Part shown: one piece after another, positions 5,581-12,888 of the stretch | Layout of the letters: every line of letters starts with the position of its first letter | How positions within the stretch are numbered: the first letter of the stretch is position 1 | Origin: Chromobacterium piscinae | GTDB taxonomy: Bacteria > Pseudomonadota > Gammaproteobacteria > Burkholderiales > Chromobacteriaceae | Assembly (NCBI RefSeq): GCF_021129175.1 | Contig: NZ_JAJOHV010000062.1 | Location: forward strand, 1 to 35,684 | Direction of reading: 5' to 3' | Length of the DNA: 35,684 bases | The notes under the pieces: generated by a model | What the model was told of the DNA's origin: nothing | The model's input: only the letters and a program-made list of their open reading frames with translations | Database searches by the model: none | Position numbers and translations under genes: made by a program

Positions 5581-5602
5581 ACCAATTTGTCTTATTTAAA
5601 CG

Positions 5603-5630
5603 AACGGCGCGGATATCCGCGCCGTTTTTG
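5603..5630 (+). terminator. Rho-independent terminator after the binding-protein gene
   Basis: aacggcgcgga (5603-5613) pairs with tccgcgccgtt (5616-5626) and runs into TTTTTG and a second T-run. The stem is perfect with a tiny loop. Confidence 0.92.
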
Positions 5631-5639
5631 TTTTTGTGG

Positions 5640-6065
5640 GGAAATTGGAGAGAAAGAATTAATCTAATAAGTAATATTTTATCAAGTATATTATTTTAGG
5701 ATATGGTTTTATTGAGGATTGGTTTTTCGCAACGGAGCCAATCTAATTATCTTTTTATCGAACATGTCGGTTGGAAATATATTTACAACATTTCTGAGGT
5801 ATTGTAATTTCTATATGTCATGTTTTTGACTCTGGACAAACCAATTACGTCCGGTTTCATGAGCTGCTGTTGAGATTGTTTTGATTTTGACAGTCTGCGG
5901 TTTGGTAAAGCTTTTCCGCATCGGCTGCTTCAAACCCTCCCGGTTTTTATTTCATGGTTTTATTGTTTACTTAATGCGATTTGCTTCGTAGGGGATGTTT
6001 TTGCTTTTTTATAGCTTGGGATTTGTGACTTTTTAATTAATTTAGATCTGCAACAAGGGAATGTC
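5640..6065 (+). promoter_or_regulatory. AT-rich leader of the ketosynthase-diiron oxygenase operon
   Basis: This gene-free stretch of about 425 bases is strikingly AT-rich (for example 5655-5712 and 6000-6050) against GC-rich surroundings. It contains short inverted repeats, gattgg (5717-5722) with ccaatc (5738-5743) and ggacaaacc (5834-5842) with ggttt at 5853-5857. Several TTGACT- and TAATT-like hexamers occur, but none form a convincing pair. AAGGGA lies shortly before the ATG at 6066 as ribosome site. It most likely holds the promoter and regulatory sites of the operon. I saw no convincing LuxR-type box. Confidence 0.45.
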
Positions 6066-7316
6066 ATGGCAAATCGTAGAGTGGTAGTAACCGGATATGG
6101 TTCTTTGACCTCTCTGGGGGAGAACTCTGCCGAGGCGTGGGAAGCCATTATGAATGGCAAGCTGGGCTATCGAAAATTCGAGTTGGAGAACCAGCAAATT
6201 AAAGCCAAGTTCTTTTCCTTCCTAGATGAGAATAAAGCGCGCTATCGAGGCATTCCCAAAGCGATTTCCCGCGCGTTGCCGGCATTCGCCAAAAATGCGG
6301 TTGTGGCGGCCAGAGAGGCGATCGATATGGCGTTCGGCAGCCCAGAGGCAATTGCGGAGCATTATCCGGCGCATGAGTGCGGCGTCATCATCGGTACGGG
6401 ATGGGGCGGCCTCGATGAAGCCTACGACATCCGCGACGCTTACCGCGATACCGGATTCGGCAGTCCTTTGGGCAGCCTGATCTCCATGCCCAGCATCGCC
6501 ACTGGTGCTTGCACACTGATGTGGAATCTGCGTGGTTATCAGAATACGGTGATCGCAGCTTGCGCCACAGGCACTATCGCGATAGGCGACGCGTACGAGG
6601 CGATTCGGCAAGGGCGCGCCAGCATGATGCTGGCGGGAGGCTCCGAAACGCTGCGTAATGAAACCAATATCTGGAATATCGACGTTCTCAATGCTTTGAG
6701 CAAAGAGCAGCAGGATGCGGAGCGGGCCTGCTGCCCGTTTGATCGCCGTCGATCCGGCTTCGTGCTCGCCGAAGGCGCTGCGGTTTTGTGTCTGGAGGAG
6801 TTGGAGCATGCTCAGCACCGCGGTGCGACGATATTGGGGGAGATCAAAGGCTATGGCAGCTTTTCCGACGCCCGCGATTTCACCGCTCCGGCCGAGGACA
6901 TGCTGGCTCGCGTCAAGTCGATCGAATTCGCGCTCAAACAAGCCGGCAAGCGGCCGGAGGACATCGACTACATCAATGCCCACGGCACTTCGACGCCATT
7001 GAATGACTTGAATGAATCCAACGCCATCAAGGCCGCCTTGGGGGGATATGCGAAGCATGTTCCGGCGTCCAGCACCAAGTCTTACAGCGGCCACCTGATT
7101 TCTGCTGCGGGCAGTTTCGAATCCATTATCTGCTTGAAGGCCATCGAGACCGGCATCCTGCCAGGCACCGCCAATCTGTTGGAATCCGATCCCGAGTGCG
7201 ATCTTAACTATCTGCCGAACGGGCATCTGCATGGACAGACGGTGGATACGACTCTCAACCTCAGCTTCGGCTTCGGCGGCGCAAACGCGGCGCTGGTGAT
7301 AGAAAGGGCGCGTTGA
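6066..7316 (+). CDS. FabF-like beta-ketoacyl-ACP synthase (first gene of the novel operon)
   Basis: The 416-residue protein is a complete type-II ketosynthase, which extends an acyl chain by decarboxylative Claisen condensation with malonyl-ACP. The catalytic triad is intact: Cys166 in AACATGT, His306 in NAHGTSTPLND and His343 in KSYSGH. The C-terminal FGFGGANAALV motif is also typical. It is unlikely to be the housekeeping FabF because it sits with a dedicated ACP, dehydratase, reductase and oxidases rather than with fabD/fabG/acpP. No acyltransferase or chain-length-factor partner is next to it, so it presumably borrows malonyl-ACP made by the cell's FabD. Its stop overlaps the next gene's ATG (TGATG). 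Confidence 0.93.
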   Translation: MANRRVVVTGYGSLTSLGENSAEAWEAIMNGKLGYRKFELENQQIKAKFFSFLDENKARYRGIPKAISRALPAFAKNAVVAAREAIDMAFGSPEAIAEHYPAHECGVIIGTGWGGLDEAYDIRDAYRDTGFGSPLGSLISMPSIATGACTLMWNLRGYQNTVIAACATGTIAIGDAYEAIRQGRASMMLAGGSETLRNETNIWNIDVLNALSKEQQDAERACCPFDRRRSGFVLAEGAAVLCLEELEHAQHRGATILGEIKGYGSFSDARDFTAPAEDMLARVKSIEFALKQAGKRPEDIDYINAHGTSTPLNDLNESNAIKAALGGYAKHVPASSTKSYSGHLISAAGSFESIICLKAIETGILPGTANLLESDPECDLNYLPNGHLHGQTVDTTLNLSFGFGGANAALVIERAR

Positions 7317-8113
7317 TGCTGCTCAGTTTCGATAACAAGGCGATCGCGGACTGGGCGAAGCTGTCCGGAGATTACAACCCTATCCATTTCGAAGTGGAGC
7401 GGGCTAGGGAAACCGGCGCCAACGACATCATCGTGCACGGCATGCTGCCGCTTTTGCATATCAAACAGCGGCTGAGCTCGGCGTTGCCCTCCGATTCCAG
7501 CAGGGATTGGGTATCGGTCAAGGCCATGTTCCGCTCGCCCGTGCTTCGCCAATTGCCGCATGCGCTGGAAATTCAACCAGGCAAGCAGCGCAGCCGCTTT
7601 TCCCTGCGAGCGACACATGACGCTTCCGAGGTGATGGCGGGCAGCGTATATCGCTCCGTACCGGCGGAGTCGCCGGAGCAATCGGCAAGCTTTTCGATAG
7701 ACCGGCAGTTGTTCCGGGAGAAAAGAGCGGTGTTTGCGGAGGCTTTTCCGGATTTTGACCGTGCTTGGCTATTGGTGGACGCGCTGACTTTTTCCCAATT
7801 CCTGTCCAGCGAAGTACCGTTTTCCATCGTCAGCGATCTAGCGAAGATGAGCGGCATTTCAAGCCAGCATGAATTGATGGATGCCGCCCTGACGGTGCAG
7901 ACGGCCCATACGGTGATGGTCGAGCCGGAGCTGTTCCGCATGCCGCTGAGCCAGCTGAAGGATCCGGGGGAAATCCGTTGCGAGCTGCACCCTCCGGTGA
8001 CCGTGCCCAATAACAAGGACACCTTGTCTGGTCTGAGCCAATTTACCGTGCGGCTGGATGGCCGTCCGGTCATGCAATCGGAAGTGGGCCTGCTGGTTCG
8101 CTTCAAACCTTGA
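7316..8113 (+). CDS. MaoC-like 3-hydroxyacyl-ACP dehydratase
   Basis: The 265-residue protein carries the MaoC/hydratase-2 signature near its N-terminus (SGDYNPIHFEVERA, residues about 18-31), with the Asp and His that form the catalytic pair of R-specific hydratases/dehydratases, followed by VHGML. It probably removes water from the 3-hydroxyacyl-ACP made by the ketoreductase of this operon. The C-terminal half (from about residue 125) has no motif I recognise and could be a degenerate second hotdog fold. The start codon ATG overlaps the ketosynthase stop; a TTG one codon earlier is less likely. Translational coupling places it firmly in the operon. Confidence 0.85.
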   Translation: MLLSFDNKAIADWAKLSGDYNPIHFEVERARETGANDIIVHGMLPLLHIKQRLSSALPSDSSRDWVSVKAMFRSPVLRQLPHALEIQPGKQRSRFSLRATHDASEVMAGSVYRSVPAESPEQSASFSIDRQLFREKRAVFAEAFPDFDRAWLLVDALTFSQFLSSEVPFSIVSDLAKMSGISSQHELMDAALTVQTAHTVMVEPELFRMPLSQLKDPGEIRCELHPPVTVPNNKDTLSGLSQFTVRLDGRPVMQSEVGLLVRFKP

Positions 8114-8141
8114 GTCTTGTCCCTTCGCTAAAGGAAGCATC

Positions 8142-8411
8142 ATGTTGAACGAAACCCAAATCTTTGACGAACTGAAAACGCTGATTCTGGACATGAAAGA
8201 GATCGAGGAGGACCAAGTGCAACTTTCCTCCAGCTTCGAGGCGCTCGAACTGGACAGCCTGGATTTCGTAGAGGTTCAAGTGTCGGTGAAGAAGCGCTAC
8301 GGCGTTGATTTGGTCTCCGATTTGTTCGCCTCTGGCAAGATCGTGGATATGGGACAGCTGGTCGGCTATATCGCCGTAGAGACTGCCCAGAAGAACGTAG
8401 CAGAAGCCTGA
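8142..8411 (+). CDS. Acyl carrier protein
   Basis: This 89-residue acidic protein has the phosphopantetheine attachment site LELDSLDFVEV with Ser39 as the modified residue. A good ribosome site (AAAGGAAG) precedes the ATG at 8142. It is the carrier on which the neighbouring ketosynthase, dehydratase and reductase would work, and probably the platform for the diiron oxygenase. No phosphopantetheinyl transferase is encoded in the cluster, so activation must come from a general enzyme. It differs from housekeeping AcpP, which typically has the GADSLDTVE-type site. Confidence 0.93.
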   Translation: MLNETQIFDELKTLILDMKEIEEDQVQLSSSFEALELDSLDFVEVQVSVKKRYGVDLVSDLFASGKIVDMGQLVGYIAVETAQKNVAEA

Positions 8412-8424
8412 TCGGAGAAACCGC

Positions 8425-9327
8425 ATGGAAACGTCCACTGTTGTGCGCGACCCGCTAGGCCTGTCCGACGAGAGCCGACGCAAGGTGCAAACGCTAATCC
8501 GCGCTTCGCACCGCAAGACCATGGAGTTGGAGAGCGTATTGCCATGGGAAAACGGCATCAATCTGAGCCTGCCGCCGAAAATGGAAACCGGCAGTTGGAT
8601 CTACGGCACGCCTTATTGGGATGCAATGACTCCGGAGCAGCGCCATGAAACCCTGTGGAAGGAAACTGCCCGCGATGTGTCGATGTTCATCTGGCTGGAG
8701 CAGACGCTGCCGCCGTTGTATGTCGGCTATATCAACCGCTTCCGTTTCGACCTGTCGCCTGAGGTGTATGAGTATCTGATGATCTTCTCGCGCGAGGAAA
8801 TCACCCATACGCTGATGTTCCGGCGCTACATGAAGATGGCGGGACTGGAGCTGTTCCAGCCGCCAGGCGGCGCTTACGGGAGCTTTGTCGAGAAACTGCC
8901 GATGATGAACCCGGTGATCGGCATATTGTGGACGCTGATGATCGAGTGGGCCGCGGAGCTGAGCGCGATGTATCTGACCCAGTCGGCGGAGGTCGAGCCT
9001 CTGACCAAGATGATGTTTCATGAGCATCATATCGAGGAGGTGCGTCATATCGCGTTCGGCAAACGTATCGTCGAGCATTTCTTCGATACTGCCCCGGAGG
9101 CGGAGCTGGCTGCGATGCGAGCGCAAATGGGCCAGTTGCTGCGCCACTTCAAGGCGGAGATGACTTTCAACAGCGAAATATCCAAGCACACCTCGTTTGT
9201 CTTCCCGATACAGCCGGGCGATGAAGAAGCGATCGCGCTGGTGAGAGGCTCGGCTAACAACCAGCGTCTGAACAGCGAGCGTTTCGCAGAGTTGGATCAG
9301 TGGTTCGCAGAACTGGGGATTGTATGA
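8425..9327 (+). CDS. AurF-family diiron oxygenase
   Basis: The 300-residue protein matches the pattern of the AurF (p-aminobenzoate N-oxygenase) family. All seven metal-ligand positions can be placed by AurF spacing: Glu92, Glu125 and His128 (EITH), Glu174, then His201, Glu205 and His208 (HxxxExxH). Characterised members oxidise amines to nitro groups or hydroxylate carrier-bound substrates. Here it lies directly after an ACP gene and before a flavoprotein and a ferredoxin, so an ACP-tethered acyl or amino-acyl substrate is plausible; that is inference. The FAD-protein ATG overlaps its stop (ATGA). The ribosome site CGGAGAAA supports the start. Confidence 0.88.
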   Translation: METSTVVRDPLGLSDESRRKVQTLIRASHRKTMELESVLPWENGINLSLPPKMETGSWIYGTPYWDAMTPEQRHETLWKETARDVSMFIWLEQTLPPLYVGYINRFRFDLSPEVYEYLMIFSREEITHTLMFRRYMKMAGLELFQPPGGAYGSFVEKLPMMNPVIGILWTLMIEWAAELSAMYLTQSAEVEPLTKMMFHEHHIEEVRHIAFGKRIVEHFFDTAPEAELAAMRAQMGQLLRHFKAEMTFNSEISKHTSFVFPIQPGDEEAIALVRGSANNQRLNSERFAELDQWFAELGIV

Positions 9328-10859
9328 GCGAGGCGGTCTGGGACATCGTTTGTGTCGGCTCCGGCATTGCTGCGCTGACTTATGCGGCGGCCCTGACCGC
9401 GCAGCGCCCGGGCTTGCGGGTTTTGTTGCTGGAGCAGCATACGGTGCCAGGGGGATATTCGAGCGAGTTTGTGCGTCCCAAGCAAGACGCACGGTTCGAT
9501 TGCAGCTTGCACAAGCTGTCCGGCATGGGCGAGCAAGGCAACCTGCGGCAGGTGTTTCGCGCGCTGGGGCTGGAAGAGCAGATCAATCTGCACTTTTCGC
9601 CGGTATTGTTCCAGGCGGCCGGACCGATATGGCTGGAAGTGTCGGAGTCGCCGGAACAGGCGTTGGATGGCTTGCTCCAGGCATTTCCCAGCCAGCGCGA
9701 AGGCCTGCTGCGGTTTTTCGACGACATCGCGGTGCATGGAAAGAACGGCTATCTGCAGTTCGAAATGTTGCAGGGGCGATACGAGCCGGATTTCGCCGCG
9801 ATGCGGTATGCCCGCAAGCATCTTAAGAACATCACTGTACGCGATGCATTGCTGGGGATGTTCGACGATCTGCAACTGTGCGAGCTGCTGGCGCTGCCGT
9901 CGATCTATGTCGGCTCATTCCCGGAGCAGTGCAGCTATCTGTACTTCCTGCACGTGGTTTATGCCAATCTGTACATGCGCAGCGCCTACATGGACGGCGG
10001 TTCGCAACGGTTGTCCAATCTGCTGGTGGAGCAGATACGGGCGCGGGGCGGAGACGTGGTGCTAAACGTTAACGTTGAGCGCATTCTGGTGGATAAGAGC
10101 ACTATGCGCGCGACCGGCGTGGCGACCGATCGAGGAGAGTTTATGGCGCGGGAGGTCCTGGTCAACGCCTCTCCGGTCTATGCGCTGGAGCAGCTGTTCG
10201 AATCCATGCCGGAGTTGGAGGCCCCGCGGCAGCTTGTGTCTAGGATACGGCCAGCCAATGCCACCAGTACGCTTTACTTGGTGCTGGACGAGGATCCTGC
10301 CCTGCTGGGGCTGCCGCATGCGGAAACCATGCTGCTGGCTGATGATCCGGATGCCGCGTGGAGCGCGCGCGAACGCTCTCGCGCCGATCCCATGAGCGAA
10401 GCGTTGGCTGAGGAGGCCTATTGGCAGCGCTCGTCTTTGGAAATCACCAACTATCACGCGCTGGACGCGAGCGGCGGCAGGGTGGTCATCGTCAATGCGC
10501 TGGATGATCCGCGTCATTGGCCGCGGCGGAAAACGCCCGAATACCGAGCCAAGAAAAAACGCGGCCAGCAAGCGCTGCTGGAGCGCGTGGGCAAGCACTT
10601 CCCGGATTTGTCGGACCATATCGTTTATGCGGAGCTGTCCAGTCCGCATACCTACCAGCGATACACCAATAATACCGCGGGGTCTGGCTATGGCGCGCTG
10701 GTTGCGCCGGATGCCGCGCCGGCTTTGATTAACCACCGCTTTCCTGTGGCCGGCGTCAGTTTTCTCAGCGCCTGGGTGGCGGGATCGGGCTACGAGGCCG
10801 CAATGGGGTATTCGATGTTCAAGGCCAGCACGGCGGCTCCCGCCGCGGCAGGCGTTTGA
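9324..10859 (+). CDS. FAD-dependent oxidoreductase of the phytoene desaturase / carotenoid isomerase type
   Basis: The 511-residue flavoprotein has an N-terminal Rossmann motif (VCVGSGIAALTYAAAL, residues about 10-25) and an acidic residue ending the second strand (LLLEQH, Glu37). The C-terminal segment GSGYEAAMGYSMF is a flavin-contact region typical of CrtI/CrtISO-like enzymes. Family members desaturate or isomerise polyene chains. In this operon it may introduce or rearrange double bonds in the ACP-bound chain, or act with the diiron oxygenase. No carotenoid genes such as crtB or crtE lie nearby, so carotenoid synthesis is unlikely. The ATG at 9324 overlaps the previous stop. Confidence 0.85.
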   Translation: MSEAVWDIVCVGSGIAALTYAAALTAQRPGLRVLLLEQHTVPGGYSSEFVRPKQDARFDCSLHKLSGMGEQGNLRQVFRALGLEEQINLHFSPVLFQAAGPIWLEVSESPEQALDGLLQAFPSQREGLLRFFDDIAVHGKNGYLQFEMLQGRYEPDFAAMRYARKHLKNITVRDALLGMFDDLQLCELLALPSIYVGSFPEQCSYLYFLHVVYANLYMRSAYMDGGSQRLSNLLVEQIRARGGDVVLNVNVERILVDKSTMRATGVATDRGEFMAREVLVNASPVYALEQLFESMPELEAPRQLVSRIRPANATSTLYLVLDEDPALLGLPHAETMLLADDPDAAWSARERSRADPMSEALAEEAYWQRSSLEITNYHALDASGGRVVIVNALDDPRHWPRRKTPEYRAKKKRGQQALLERVGKHFPDLSDHIVYAELSSPHTYQRYTNNTAGSGYGALVAPDAAPALINHRFPVAGVSFLSAWVAGSGYEAAMGYSMFKASTAAPAAAGV

Positions 10860-10883
10860 ACGACATCAATTGAAGGAGCGGCA

Positions 10884-11630
10884 ATGCAAGACGAAATCAT
10901 GCAACCCTGGGTGTTGGTGACTGGTGGCAGCCGAGGCATAGGCAAGGGCCTGGTGTTAGAGCTGGCGAAAGACTACCGGGTTGTTTTCACCTACAAGAGC
11001 AACGCGGAGCAGGCGCGCGCAGTGGAGGAGTCTGTCCTGAGAATGGGTGGAGAGGCTTATGCGGTCCAGTGCGACGGCAGCGATCCCGAGGCCGCGAAGC
11101 GCTTGGCGACGCAGTGCCTGGAGCGTTTCGGCCCGCCGTACGCCGTCATCAACAATGCCGGCGTGACCCGGGATGGCTTGATGATCTCCATGCCGCTGGG
11201 GGCATGGCGCGACGTGATGTCAGCTAATCTGGACGCGGTGTTCCATATCACGCAGGCGTTCTTGCCCGCGATGTGCGGTGAAAAACGGGGCGCGGTGCTG
11301 CTGATGTCTTCCGTCACCGCGATCAAGGGCAATATGGGCCAAGCCAACTACGCGGCGACCAAGGCGGCCATGGCGGGGCTGGCCCGCACCTTGGCGCTGG
11401 AGACCGCCCGTTTCAAGATCCGAGTCAACGCGATCGCGCCGGGTTTGATCGACACGGACATGGCGGACGATATTTCGGATAAGGCGCGGCAACAGCTGGA
11501 GAGGAACATCCCCTTGCGTCGCTTGGGCACGGTTGGGGAGGTGGCGGGCTTAGTGAGGTACTTATTGTCCGATGCCGCGGCTTACATCACCGGACAAACC
11601 ATCGTGATGGATGGCGGACTCAGCAGCTGA
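10884..11630 (+). CDS. 3-oxoacyl-ACP reductase, short-chain dehydrogenase (FabG-like)
   Basis: The 248-residue protein is a classical short-chain dehydrogenase. The cofactor loop is TGGSRGIG (residues 13-20), followed by NNAG (90-93) and the catalytic Ser142/Ser143, Tyr156 and Lys160 in the YxxxK pattern. The closing VMDGG motif is typical of FabG. It would reduce the 3-ketoacyl-ACP made by the operon's ketosynthase to the 3-hydroxy form used by the MaoC-like dehydratase. A strong GAAGGAG ribosome site precedes the start; a second Met (residue 6) is a less likely start. Confidence 0.92.
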   Translation: MQDEIMQPWVLVTGGSRGIGKGLVLELAKDYRVVFTYKSNAEQARAVEESVLRMGGEAYAVQCDGSDPEAAKRLATQCLERFGPPYAVINNAGVTRDGLMISMPLGAWRDVMSANLDAVFHITQAFLPAMCGEKRGAVLLMSSVTAIKGNMGQANYAATKAAMAGLARTLALETARFKIRVNAIAPGLIDTDMADDISDKARQQLERNIPLRRLGTVGEVAGLVRYLLSDAAAYITGQTIVMDGGLSS

Positions 11631-11672
11631 GGCGGATACGGCGCGGAGGGGCCGCGCCGATAGGAGAGCATC

Positions 11673-12011
11673 ATGACTTATGTTGTTTTAAGCGACTGCA
11701 TAGGCTGTAAGCATTCGGATTGCGTGGATGTCTGTCCGACCGACAGTTTTCACGAAGGTCCAAACATGTTGGCCATCAATCCCGATGACTGCATCGACTG
11801 CGGCCTGTGCGTGCCGGAATGTCCAATCGATGCGATCCGGGAGGACAAGGCTGTGCCGTCCCACGAGAGCGATATGATCGCGCTTAATGCCGACTTGGCG
11901 CAGCGGTGGCCCAATATAACCAAGAGCAAGCCGGCTTTACCGGAGGCCGAGGCCTGGAGGGGAAGGCCAGACAAGCTGCAATATTTGGAGGATTATTCCG
12001 AAACCGTCTGA
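11673..12011 (+). CDS. 7Fe ferredoxin ([3Fe-4S][4Fe-4S], FdxA type)
   Basis: The 112-residue protein closely follows the FdxA/Azotobacter ferredoxin I pattern. Cys9, Cys17 and Cys50 would hold the [3Fe-4S] cluster, and Cys21, Cys40, Cys43 and Cys46 the [4Fe-4S] cluster. The C-terminal helix region with RWPNITKSK is also typical. It lies inside the operon behind a good ribosome site, so it is likely the dedicated electron donor of the AurF-like diiron enzyme, which needs two electrons per turnover. A reductase for the ferredoxin is not encoded in the cluster unless the flavoprotein fills this role. Confidence 0.93.
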   Translation: MTYVVLSDCIGCKHSDCVDVCPTDSFHEGPNMLAINPDDCIDCGLCVPECPIDAIREDKAVPSHESDMIALNADLAQRWPNITKSKPALPEAEAWRGRPDKLQYLEDYSETV

Positions 12012-12023
12012 TGGAGCCAAAAC

Positions 12024-12437
12024 ATGCTGAGTTTGACGCTGTGTCTGGTTTTTGCGCTGATTAGCGCGATACATTTCTATTGGGCGCTGGGGGGGCGGGT
12101 CGGGTTTTCCTCCGCCATTCCGGAGGTGGATGGTCGGAAGCTATTCCAACCGTCGGCGATCGGAACGGCCATTGTCGCCTTGCTGCTTGCTCTGTCTGCG
12201 GTGGCAATCGCTTTGCATGAGGGAAGGTTTTTCCCGGAAACAAGCTGGTTGGCGCGCTTGTTGAAATGGGGATTGTTGGCGTTGAGCGCTGGCATGTTGC
12301 TGCGAGGCGTCGGCGAGTTCCGCTATGTCGGCCTGTTCAAGCGGGTCAAGGGAAGCCGCTTCGCCCGCAACGACACGCGTTTCTATTCCCCGCTGTGTCT
12401 GATGTTGGCTGCTGGGCTATTCTACCTCGCGTGGTAA
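12024..12437 (+). CDS. DUF3995-type small integral membrane protein
   Basis: The 137-residue protein has about four hydrophobic helices (residues about 3-22, 48-66, 80-96, 118-136) and the conserved DUF3995-like opening with IHFYWALGG. The function of the family is unknown. It starts 12 bases after the ferredoxin stop with a GGAG ribosome site, so it appears to be the last gene of the operon. It could anchor or protect the pathway, or handle a hydrophobic product, but nothing in the sequence proves this. A 26-base palindrome follows and probably marks the end of the transcript. Confidence 0.75.
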   Translation: MLSLTLCLVFALISAIHFYWALGGRVGFSSAIPEVDGRKLFQPSAIGTAIVALLLALSAVAIALHEGRFFPETSWLARLLKWGLLALSAGMLLRGVGEFRYVGLFKRVKGSRFARNDTRFYSPLCLMLAAGLFYLAW

Positions 12438-12447
12438 GACGGCTGTG

Positions 12448-12473
12448 TATGGACGGGCAGGCCCGTCCATACT
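12448..12473 (+). terminator. Perfect 26-base palindrome, probable operon terminator
   Basis: gtatggacgggc (12448-12459) is followed after two bases by its exact reverse complement (12462-12473). It lies 10 bases after the DUF3995 stop, where an operon terminator is expected. The following bases (ttctcata) are only mildly T-rich, so an operator or a dispersed repeat is an alternative. Confidence 0.6.
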
Positions 12474-12522
12474 TCTCATATCCGGTTTCGACAGCCATCT
12501 TGGGAAGAGATAGCATGCGGAT

Positions 12523-12888
12523 ATGAACAAAGTCAGCGGTAACAAGATGGCAAAAACCGAGCTTTCGCCTTGCATTGGCATATGCAGGCTGGACGATAGC
12601 GGACAGATCTGCATCGGCTGCCGCCGCACGCTGGATGAAATCGCGGGGTGGTCCCGCTACGGCGAGGAGCAGAAGGCGCAGGTCTGGCGGCGGCTGTTGG
12701 CGCTGCCGTTGCCGGTGCAAGCGAAGACCTGCCCTCAATGCGGCAGCGGCTTCGCCTGTGGCGCTGGAGGTGAGAGTGGCGGTTGCTGGTGCGCGGATCT
12801 GCCGCTCGAGCTGTCGCCGAGCGAGGCCGACAGCGACTGTTTGTGCCCCGCCTGCTTGCAGAAGCGGCTAAGTCTCCGGGATGAATAA
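12523..12888 (+). CDS. DUF1289 and cysteine-rich CWC-type protein
   Basis: The protein has up to 121 residues. The first half is a DUF1289 domain (SPCIGICRLDD, CIGCRRTLDEIAGW), with four cysteines that could bind a metal. The second half has paired cysteines (CPQCGSGFACG, CWC, CLCPACL) of the small cysteine-rich CWC type. Together they suggest two zinc or iron-sulfur binding modules fused in one protein; no enzymatic role is known to me. An alternative start is the ATG at 12547, close to where DUF1289 begins; neither has a strong ribosome site. It is separated from the upstream operon by a palindrome. Confidence 0.75.
   Translation: MNKVSGNKMAKTELSPCIGICRLDDSGQICIGCRRTLDEIAGWSRYGEEQKAQVWRRLLALPLPVQAKTCPQCGSGFACGAGGESGGCWCADLPLELSPSEADSDCLCPACLQKRLSLRDE

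Follow-up and report, generated by a model that had tools for sequence, protein, structure and literature searches.

The 35,684-nt contig NZ_JAJOHV010000062.1 of Chromobacterium piscinae, which was analysed whole and is called the window here, carries an operon of eight co-oriented, tightly packed open reading frames at positions 6066 to 12437 of the forward strand. An original prediction, made from the letters of the DNA alone, read these genes as a unit built around an acyl carrier protein (ACP), with an AurF-type diiron enzyme, a CrtI-like flavoprotein, a ferredoxin and a ketosynthase (KS) whose Cys-His-His residues are intact. The gene identities were confirmed, as each of the eight proteins passed its Pfam cut-off, with NCBIfam scores taken as a second measure. 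In order, the genes are:

6066–7316, + strand: FabF-like beta-ketoacyl-ACP synthase with intact Cys166-His306-His343 (Pfam ketoacyl-synt, NCBIfam, alignment, tree, ratio of nonsynonymous to synonymous substitution rates (dN/dS))
7316–8113, + strand: MaoC-type (hot dog) hydratase/dehydratase with the Asp20/His25 motif (Pfam MaoC, 36.1 versus 27 bits)
8142–8411, + strand: free ACP with phosphopantetheine Ser39 (Pfam PP-binding, 30.1 versus 20.8)
8425–9327, + strand: AurF-type diiron protein (Pfam AurF, PF11583, 72.4 versus 29.6 bits)
9324–10859, + strand: flavin adenine dinucleotide oxidoreductase of the CrtI/CrtD fold, signature FDCSLHK (Pfam NAD_binding_8, Amino_oxidase)
10884–11630, + strand: FabG-like ketoreductase, Ser142-Tyr156-Lys160 (Pfam adh_short_C2, NCBIfam, alignment)
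11673–12011, + strand: FdxA-type 7Fe ferredoxin (Pfam Fer4 and DUF3470; NCBIfam NF045490, 146.5 versus 135 bits)
12024–12437, + strand: DUF3995 protein, small and membrane-like by sequence reading (Pfam DUF3995)

The genes had been described as 'several overlapping', which holds for two of the seven junctions (KS/MaoC by 1 nt and AurF/CrtI by 4 nt), whereas the other five have gaps of 12–42 nt. The MaoC frame starts at ATG 7316, with a TTG also at 7313. Although the Pfam family adh_short_C2 bears the title 'enoyl-ACP reductase', a ketoreductase-type enzyme fits the sixth gene, because its product scores above the cut-off of the NCBIfam FabG subfamily NF009466 (223.8 versus 222) and has the Tyr156-x3-Lys160 spacing; it lies under several FabG equivalog cut-offs. 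The KS likewise falls under the NCBIfam FabF equivalog cut-off (378.6 versus 493.75 bits).

Judged by gene content, this operon is an instance of a module that recurs in two clades among unrelated bacteria, a result that goes beyond the original prediction. We scanned genome contigs with five aligned flavoproteins and the motifs FDCSLHK[LMI] and I[TS]NYH[AE]LD. Of the 49 stretches matched by the scan, 24 encode relatives, among them L053, the same record as L030 of the query; all 24 of these loci also hold KS, ACP, AurF-type and FabG genes, which rules out a one-off assemblage. The relatives' genes were mapped by tblastn with queries from the window and from L029, L033, L035 and L036; genes unlike these queries are uncounted, and de novo gene calls are rough in the GC-rich loci. 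Nineteen of the scan loci are window-like and come from a Verminephrobacter, two isolates labelled Pantoea, six Pseudomonas, four Massilia, two Stenotrophomonas, Lysobacter telluris, Pseudoalteromonas rubra and two metagenome-assembled genomes (MAGs). Together with two same-genus copies, they make up 21 window-like loci.

We found the first seven genes, which form the core of the module, in all 21 window-like loci (the CrtI-like gene by selection), collinear and on one strand in 19 of them. The exceptions are L044, where two AurF-type genes stand ahead of the KS, and L048, where FabG and the ferredoxin lie on the other strand. The grouping is therefore not chance, since order and strand are kept in 19 of the 21 other loci, and the claim that the genes form one functional unit stands. 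Pairwise distances of the seven core proteins correlate at 0.83–0.97, which is consistent with joint inheritance and would also follow from shared host descent. The window operon, made up of the core and DUF3995, is the leanest form of the module.

An alignment of the 22 window-like copies shows the catalytic residues to be invariant throughout, in the KS (Cys166, His306, Lys338 and His343), the MaoC enzyme (Asp20, Asn22 and His25), the ACP (Ser39), the FabG-like reductase (Ser142, Tyr156 and Lys160) and the ferredoxin (all 8 Cys). When the window was compared with the two other same-genus copies, dN/dS was 0.012–0.115 across all eight genes, lowest for the diiron protein (0.012–0.017) and the KS (0.022–0.033), and no internal stops were present in the three genomes. 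All eight genes are under purifying selection, and the operon is real and evidently functional. In the KS tree, the window-like proteins form a 100/100 clade apart from two FabF-like rows, which are their nearest neighbours at 96/92; this separate clade and the patchy presence of the operon rule out a duplicate of the housekeeping fatty-acid synthase.

Comparison of gene neighbourhoods, proposed with the original prediction, was run within the genus and placed the operon in only 3 of 19 genomes (its own, G006 and G015), at a single site. Two further features describe this site:

5634–12564, no strand: unit gained or lost between a livK-like and a DUF1289 gene (empty site in five relatives, blastn)
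5634–6065, + strand: A+T-rich upstream region with a palindrome, conserved among the three operon-bearing genomes

Among the 16 same-genus genomes that have no operon, the livK-like and DUF1289 genes are direct neighbours in 10, another livK-like gene lies there in five and neither was seen in one. In five of those 10 empty-site genomes, blastn similarity to the window ends at ~5629–5633 and restarts at ~12561–12565, break points which indicate that ~6.9 kb was gained or lost as one unit. The GC content of the operon is 58.6%, compared to 65.5% in the upstream flank, 68% in the downstream flank and 35% in region 5581–6065. From the patchiness, the composition and the host range, the operon has apparently spread horizontally, with gain and loss at this site not separated. 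The A+T-rich region holds a 20-bp palindrome, GTTGGAAATATATTTACAAC, at 5770–5789 (10/11 pairs per arm), which is unchanged in the three operon-bearing genomes and is a possible regulator site; a promoter search of 5634–6065 returned no + strand match. Other genomes of the genus have DUF3995 as well, with unrelated neighbours, and we found no paper naming the family in open-licence full text. Elsewhere in the window's own genome, there is a second FdxA-like gene (55%), and contigs C12 and C58 hold 17 further ketosynthase matches; the open frames around these matches reach 3,611 aa, a length that suggests large modular polyketide synthase genes.

The relatives differ from the window mainly in what surrounds the core. 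An alpha/beta hydrolase gene lies between the flavoprotein and FabG in 14 of the 19 window-like scan loci, while tblastn with the hydrolase query gave no match in L033, L042, L044, L047 and L048; the window's own genome has weak matches to this hydrolase, at best E 1.8e-8 over ~96 residues. Two further CrtI-like proteins are encoded in nine of the 19 loci, and a ~143-aa protein with no Pfam match ends 12 of them. In an hhalign comparison with DUF3995, this protein gave a probability of 84% (E 7.9e-6, 75 columns) and it occupies the same slot, which is suggestive of a remote homologue and no more. Eight of the 19 loci, L036 counted, have an upstream LuxR-type gene whose product shares at least 51% identity with that of L036. 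The Verminephrobacter locus (L033) adds an autoinducer synthase, a LuxR-type gene, a pyridoxal phosphate (PLP) decarboxylase, two fatty-acid-desaturase-family proteins, an adenosine monophosphate (AMP)-ligase and a major facilitator superfamily (MFS) efflux protein. Efflux genes of the resistance-nodulation-division (RND) type adjoin the copies in L035 and, by similarity, L043. The original prediction left loading and release unexplained, which is still true of the window; the relatives, with their hydrolase, the nonribosomal peptide synthetase (NRPS) fragment beside the Lysobacter copy and the AMP-ligase in Verminephrobacter, show varied release.

In Lysobacter telluris (L048:6-15455), the module adjoins the NRPS fragment, an ABC transporter, a sulfotransferase-SCP2 protein, a 4-hydroxyphenylpyruvate dioxygenase-like gene, an aminotransferase-like gene, a flavin mononucleotide-dependent dehydrogenase and a phosphopantetheinyl transferase, a set that we take to resemble hydroxyphenylglycine supply. 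In L044, a Burkholderiaceae MAG, the two AurF-type genes that precede the module stand in tandem at 677-2760.

The second clade comprises six loci (Photobacterium GJ3 L029, L051, L052, L053, L054 and L055), whose proteins are far from those of the window: 24–27% identity for AurF-type, 30–33% for CrtI-like, 39–46% for FabG and 31–33% for KS. The ACP is also common to both clades. In place of MaoC there is a FabA/FabZ-type dehydratase; a flavodoxin gene is present in five of the six loci (all but L051), and tblastn with the ferredoxin query found no match in this clade. Additional genes encode an AMP-ligase (in L029 closest to benzoate-CoA ligases), one or two beta-ketoacyl-ACP synthase III (KASIII) proteins, an SCP2 protein and a metallo-beta-lactamase-fold protein, and two of the six loci also showed DUF3995. 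A KS-related gene, with a partial ketoacyl-synt match and no NCBIfam match, is read as chain-length factor (CLF)-like. These loci (L029:6462-18889 and L051–L055) form a larger cluster type, of which we found no description in the open-licence literature as far as searched. That two clades fill equal roles with different parts is the best argument that the AurF-type and CrtI-like proteins take part in the ACP pathway.

The diiron protein has predicted metal ligands E92, E125, H128, E174, H201, E205 and H208, which are invariant in 31 of 31 aligned rows, including six second-clade copies and two copies outside the module (L020 and L021). These seven residues apparently correspond to the 4-Glu/3-His ligand set of AurF. 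The protein's AlphaFold2 model (pLDDT 90.7) has AurF (2jcd) as the best Foldseek match in the PDB (E 5.4e-4, TM 0.62), with AurF and CmlI ranked first, so that the nearest solved structures to the model are N-oxygenases. Sequence searches of the PDB gave R2-like oxidases and other weak matches, with AurF at E 0.35. The two copies outside the module (L020:9440-10345 on the - strand and L021:9971-10876 on the + strand) belong to two other genomes of the order. In each, an AMP-ligase gene flanks the AurF-type gene on one side and a gene of the enoyl-CoA-hydratase family on the other, and an HxlR-type regulator gene adjoins the ligase (by Pfam at L020, by sequence reading at L021). The products of the two AurF-type copies are 54% and 50% identical to the window's protein. 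A tree, in which some branches are long, groups them in a clade of eight rows (97/99) that also holds the proteins of the window, Verminephrobacter and L044; their neighbours there are the two L044 proteins (86/81). These gene neighbours and the tree placement are moderate evidence that the window's AurF-type subfamily meets acyl thioesters. The window's own genome has two further AurF-family matches (G000:C32:41654-42460 and G000:C35:86897-87391), one of them over the Pfam cut-off; by sequence reading, one open reading frame of the C32 stretch looks like an adenylating enzyme.

The flavoprotein has the CrtI/CrtD family fold, and it differs from the carotenoid enzymes themselves: its scores are far under every listed NCBIfam cut-off (93.1 versus 549.7 for CrtD, 88.8 versus 586.9 for the isomerase and 66 versus 238.1 for crtI_fam), and no other carotenoid gene is among the eight, which sets it apart from CrtI/CrtD desaturases and CRTISO alike. 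In a phylum sample of 398 genomes, four others match the flavoprotein profile (E up to 1e-60), most like the relatives' CrtI2, with weak ferredoxin-, ligase- or RND-like matches only around them when queried with window and relative proteins. A class sample of 369 genomes yielded six other matches (E up to 1e-20); of three loci examined, G158 holds a second-clade cluster and the other two hold no partner gene. Plasmids may in general carry such genes: there are two diverged matches to the diiron protein in plasmids and 22 plasmid records matching the flavoprotein, and the Photobacterium GJ3 second-clade copy lies on a 1.69 Mb plasmid. A virus-borne gene was rejected, since a search of viral contigs other than the phage collection confirmed no relative of the diiron protein. 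A defence system was rejected as a candidate, with PADLOC giving one weak desaturase-like match, to the flavoprotein. In skyllamycin-type cinnamoyl clusters, a phytoene-dehydrogenase-like enzyme plays a role, and the word 'phytoene' is absent from two cinnamoyl papers searched by passages.

We consider it probable that the operon is an aerobic, self-contained module in which an acyl chain bound to the ACP is first extended and then oxidised, with variable loading and release. The ACP would take its chain from the host fatty-acid synthase, the eight genes including neither a KASIII nor a ligase. The KS would then add C2 units, and the FabG-like reductase and MaoC enzyme would form a 2-enoyl-ACP, whose unsaturation would be kept since none of the eight is recognisable as a dedicated enoyl reductase. 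Desaturation, oxygenation or isomerisation of the ACP-bound chain would be the work of the CrtD-fold flavoprotein and of the AurF-fold diiron enzyme, which the dedicated ferredoxin would supply. Release would be lineage-specific and, in the window, carried out by a gene outside the operon. ACP-based chain building and oxidative tailoring, as originally predicted, are supported; a polyene product and an iterative KS are conjectural. More tentatively, with the balance leaning slightly against it, the module may stand for a new class of chemistry, the aerobic oxidation of acyl groups tethered to ACP, with a carotenoid-desaturase-fold flavoprotein and a diiron enzyme of the AurF family working jointly on acyl-ACP carbon. 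It would be a portable cassette that is combined with hydrolases, ligases or NRPS parts in different bacteria to give a metabolite family with no known member.

A nitrogen-oxygenating pathway, where the AurF-type enzyme oxidises an amine on or joined to the chain to a nitro, azoxy or hydroxylamine group, as AurF and CmlI do, is unlikely. The Foldseek ranking speaks for it, as do a Pfam family named after an N-oxygenase and the nitrogen genes of relatives (the Verminephrobacter PLP decarboxylase and the Lysobacter NRPS fragment and aminotransferase-like gene). Against it, the operon has no amine source, with no aminotransferase or amino-acid ligase among the eight by Pfam and NCBIfam, and the sister AurF-type genes outside the module adjoin AMP-ligase and enoyl-CoA-hydratase-family genes. 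As known systems, AurF and CmlI have in common with the window's protein the Pfam family, the fold and an apparent 4-Glu/3-His ligand set; the window's protein is 14–17% identical to them and is tied to ACP, KS and CrtI-like genes.

We likewise give a low probability to a module whose product, an unusual acyl group, goes into a membrane lipid or an acyl signal and is not a secreted metabolite. The window operon has neither transporter nor ligase and ends with a small membrane-like protein, and the Verminephrobacter autoinducer-synthase and LuxR-type genes, with the LuxR-type genes upstream of other copies, would suit a signal. Yet LuxI/LuxR may be regulatory only, and the efflux genes beside L035, L043 and L033 and the NRPS fragment in L048 are arranged as in metabolite clusters.

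An aryl-polyene-like or plain conjugated polyene pigment cluster, with accessory redox genes, is improbable. It would share with the operon ACP-bound KS, ketoreductase and dehydratase chemistry and the lack of a dedicated enoyl reductase among the eight. In passages of PMC8358021, aryl polyene clusters comprise ApeO-ApeC and ApeR, with two ACPs, a KS-CLF heterodimer and a second KS; the operon instead has one KS-family protein by Pfam, one PP-binding protein and no aryl-starter gene, and so the predicted absence of aryl-polyene hallmarks holds for those tested. The L029 CLF-like query, a single diverged protein with a partial ketoacyl-synt match, found no match in the 21 window-like loci, and all 21 carry AurF-type and CrtI-like genes (the latter by selection). 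An inactive remnant of a larger cluster that has lost its loading and release genes is the least credible reading and was rejected on dN/dS: no ligase, KASIII, thioesterase or exporter is among the eight and many relatives have more genes, but purifying selection, uninterrupted frames and intact catalytic residues oppose decay, and five relatives likewise have no hydrolase match.

In agreement with the original prediction that no described pathway has this exact set, we found no description of it among the matches listed in open-licence full text, a corpus that leaves most subscription journals outside. Clusters that have a common core and differing release genes are a good hunting ground for new metabolites. 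The type II polyketide synthase-like system of cispentacin (AmcB, AmcF-AmcG), as covered by passages of PMC10698177, resembles the operon in its free ACP and FabF-like KS, and both NCBIfam models were matched; the AmcF and AmcB equivalog scores are under the cut-offs (173.7 versus 325 and 27 versus 80 bits), no aminotransferase is among the eight, and the main text of that paper never uses the words 'diiron', 'phytoene' or 'flavin'.

The nearest described precedent, compared by gene content, are the type II fatty-acid synthase (FASII) clusters of the ladderane or polyunsaturated-hydrocarbon type in anammox bacteria and Desulfotalea, whose CrtI-like proteins are suspected acyl-ACP desaturases in passages of PMC2649909 and PMC4790861. 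Like the window, these clusters combine a FabF-like KS, an ACP, a dehydratase and FabG with a phytoene-desaturase-like flavoprotein; when assayed for lycopene in E. coli, the anammox flavoproteins did not act as CrtI (passage of PMC4790861). They place radical S-adenosylmethionine enzymes alongside the phytoene-desaturase-like proteins (passage of PMC2649909), whereas no such family is among the window's eight genes, which have the diiron protein and ferredoxin instead. The action of CrtI-like flavoproteins on ACP-held fatty acyl chains has so far been a suspicion drawn from the anammox ladderane clusters. In the module, seven genes make up a compact core with the same CrtI-like/FASII partnership; its carriers are not anammox bacteria but include named isolates of Pseudomonas, Massilia, Stenotrophomonas and Pseudoalteromonas, and the partnership is joined there to a diiron protein. 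Consequently, a compact operon that joins both proteins makes the flavoprotein and diiron questions testable together.

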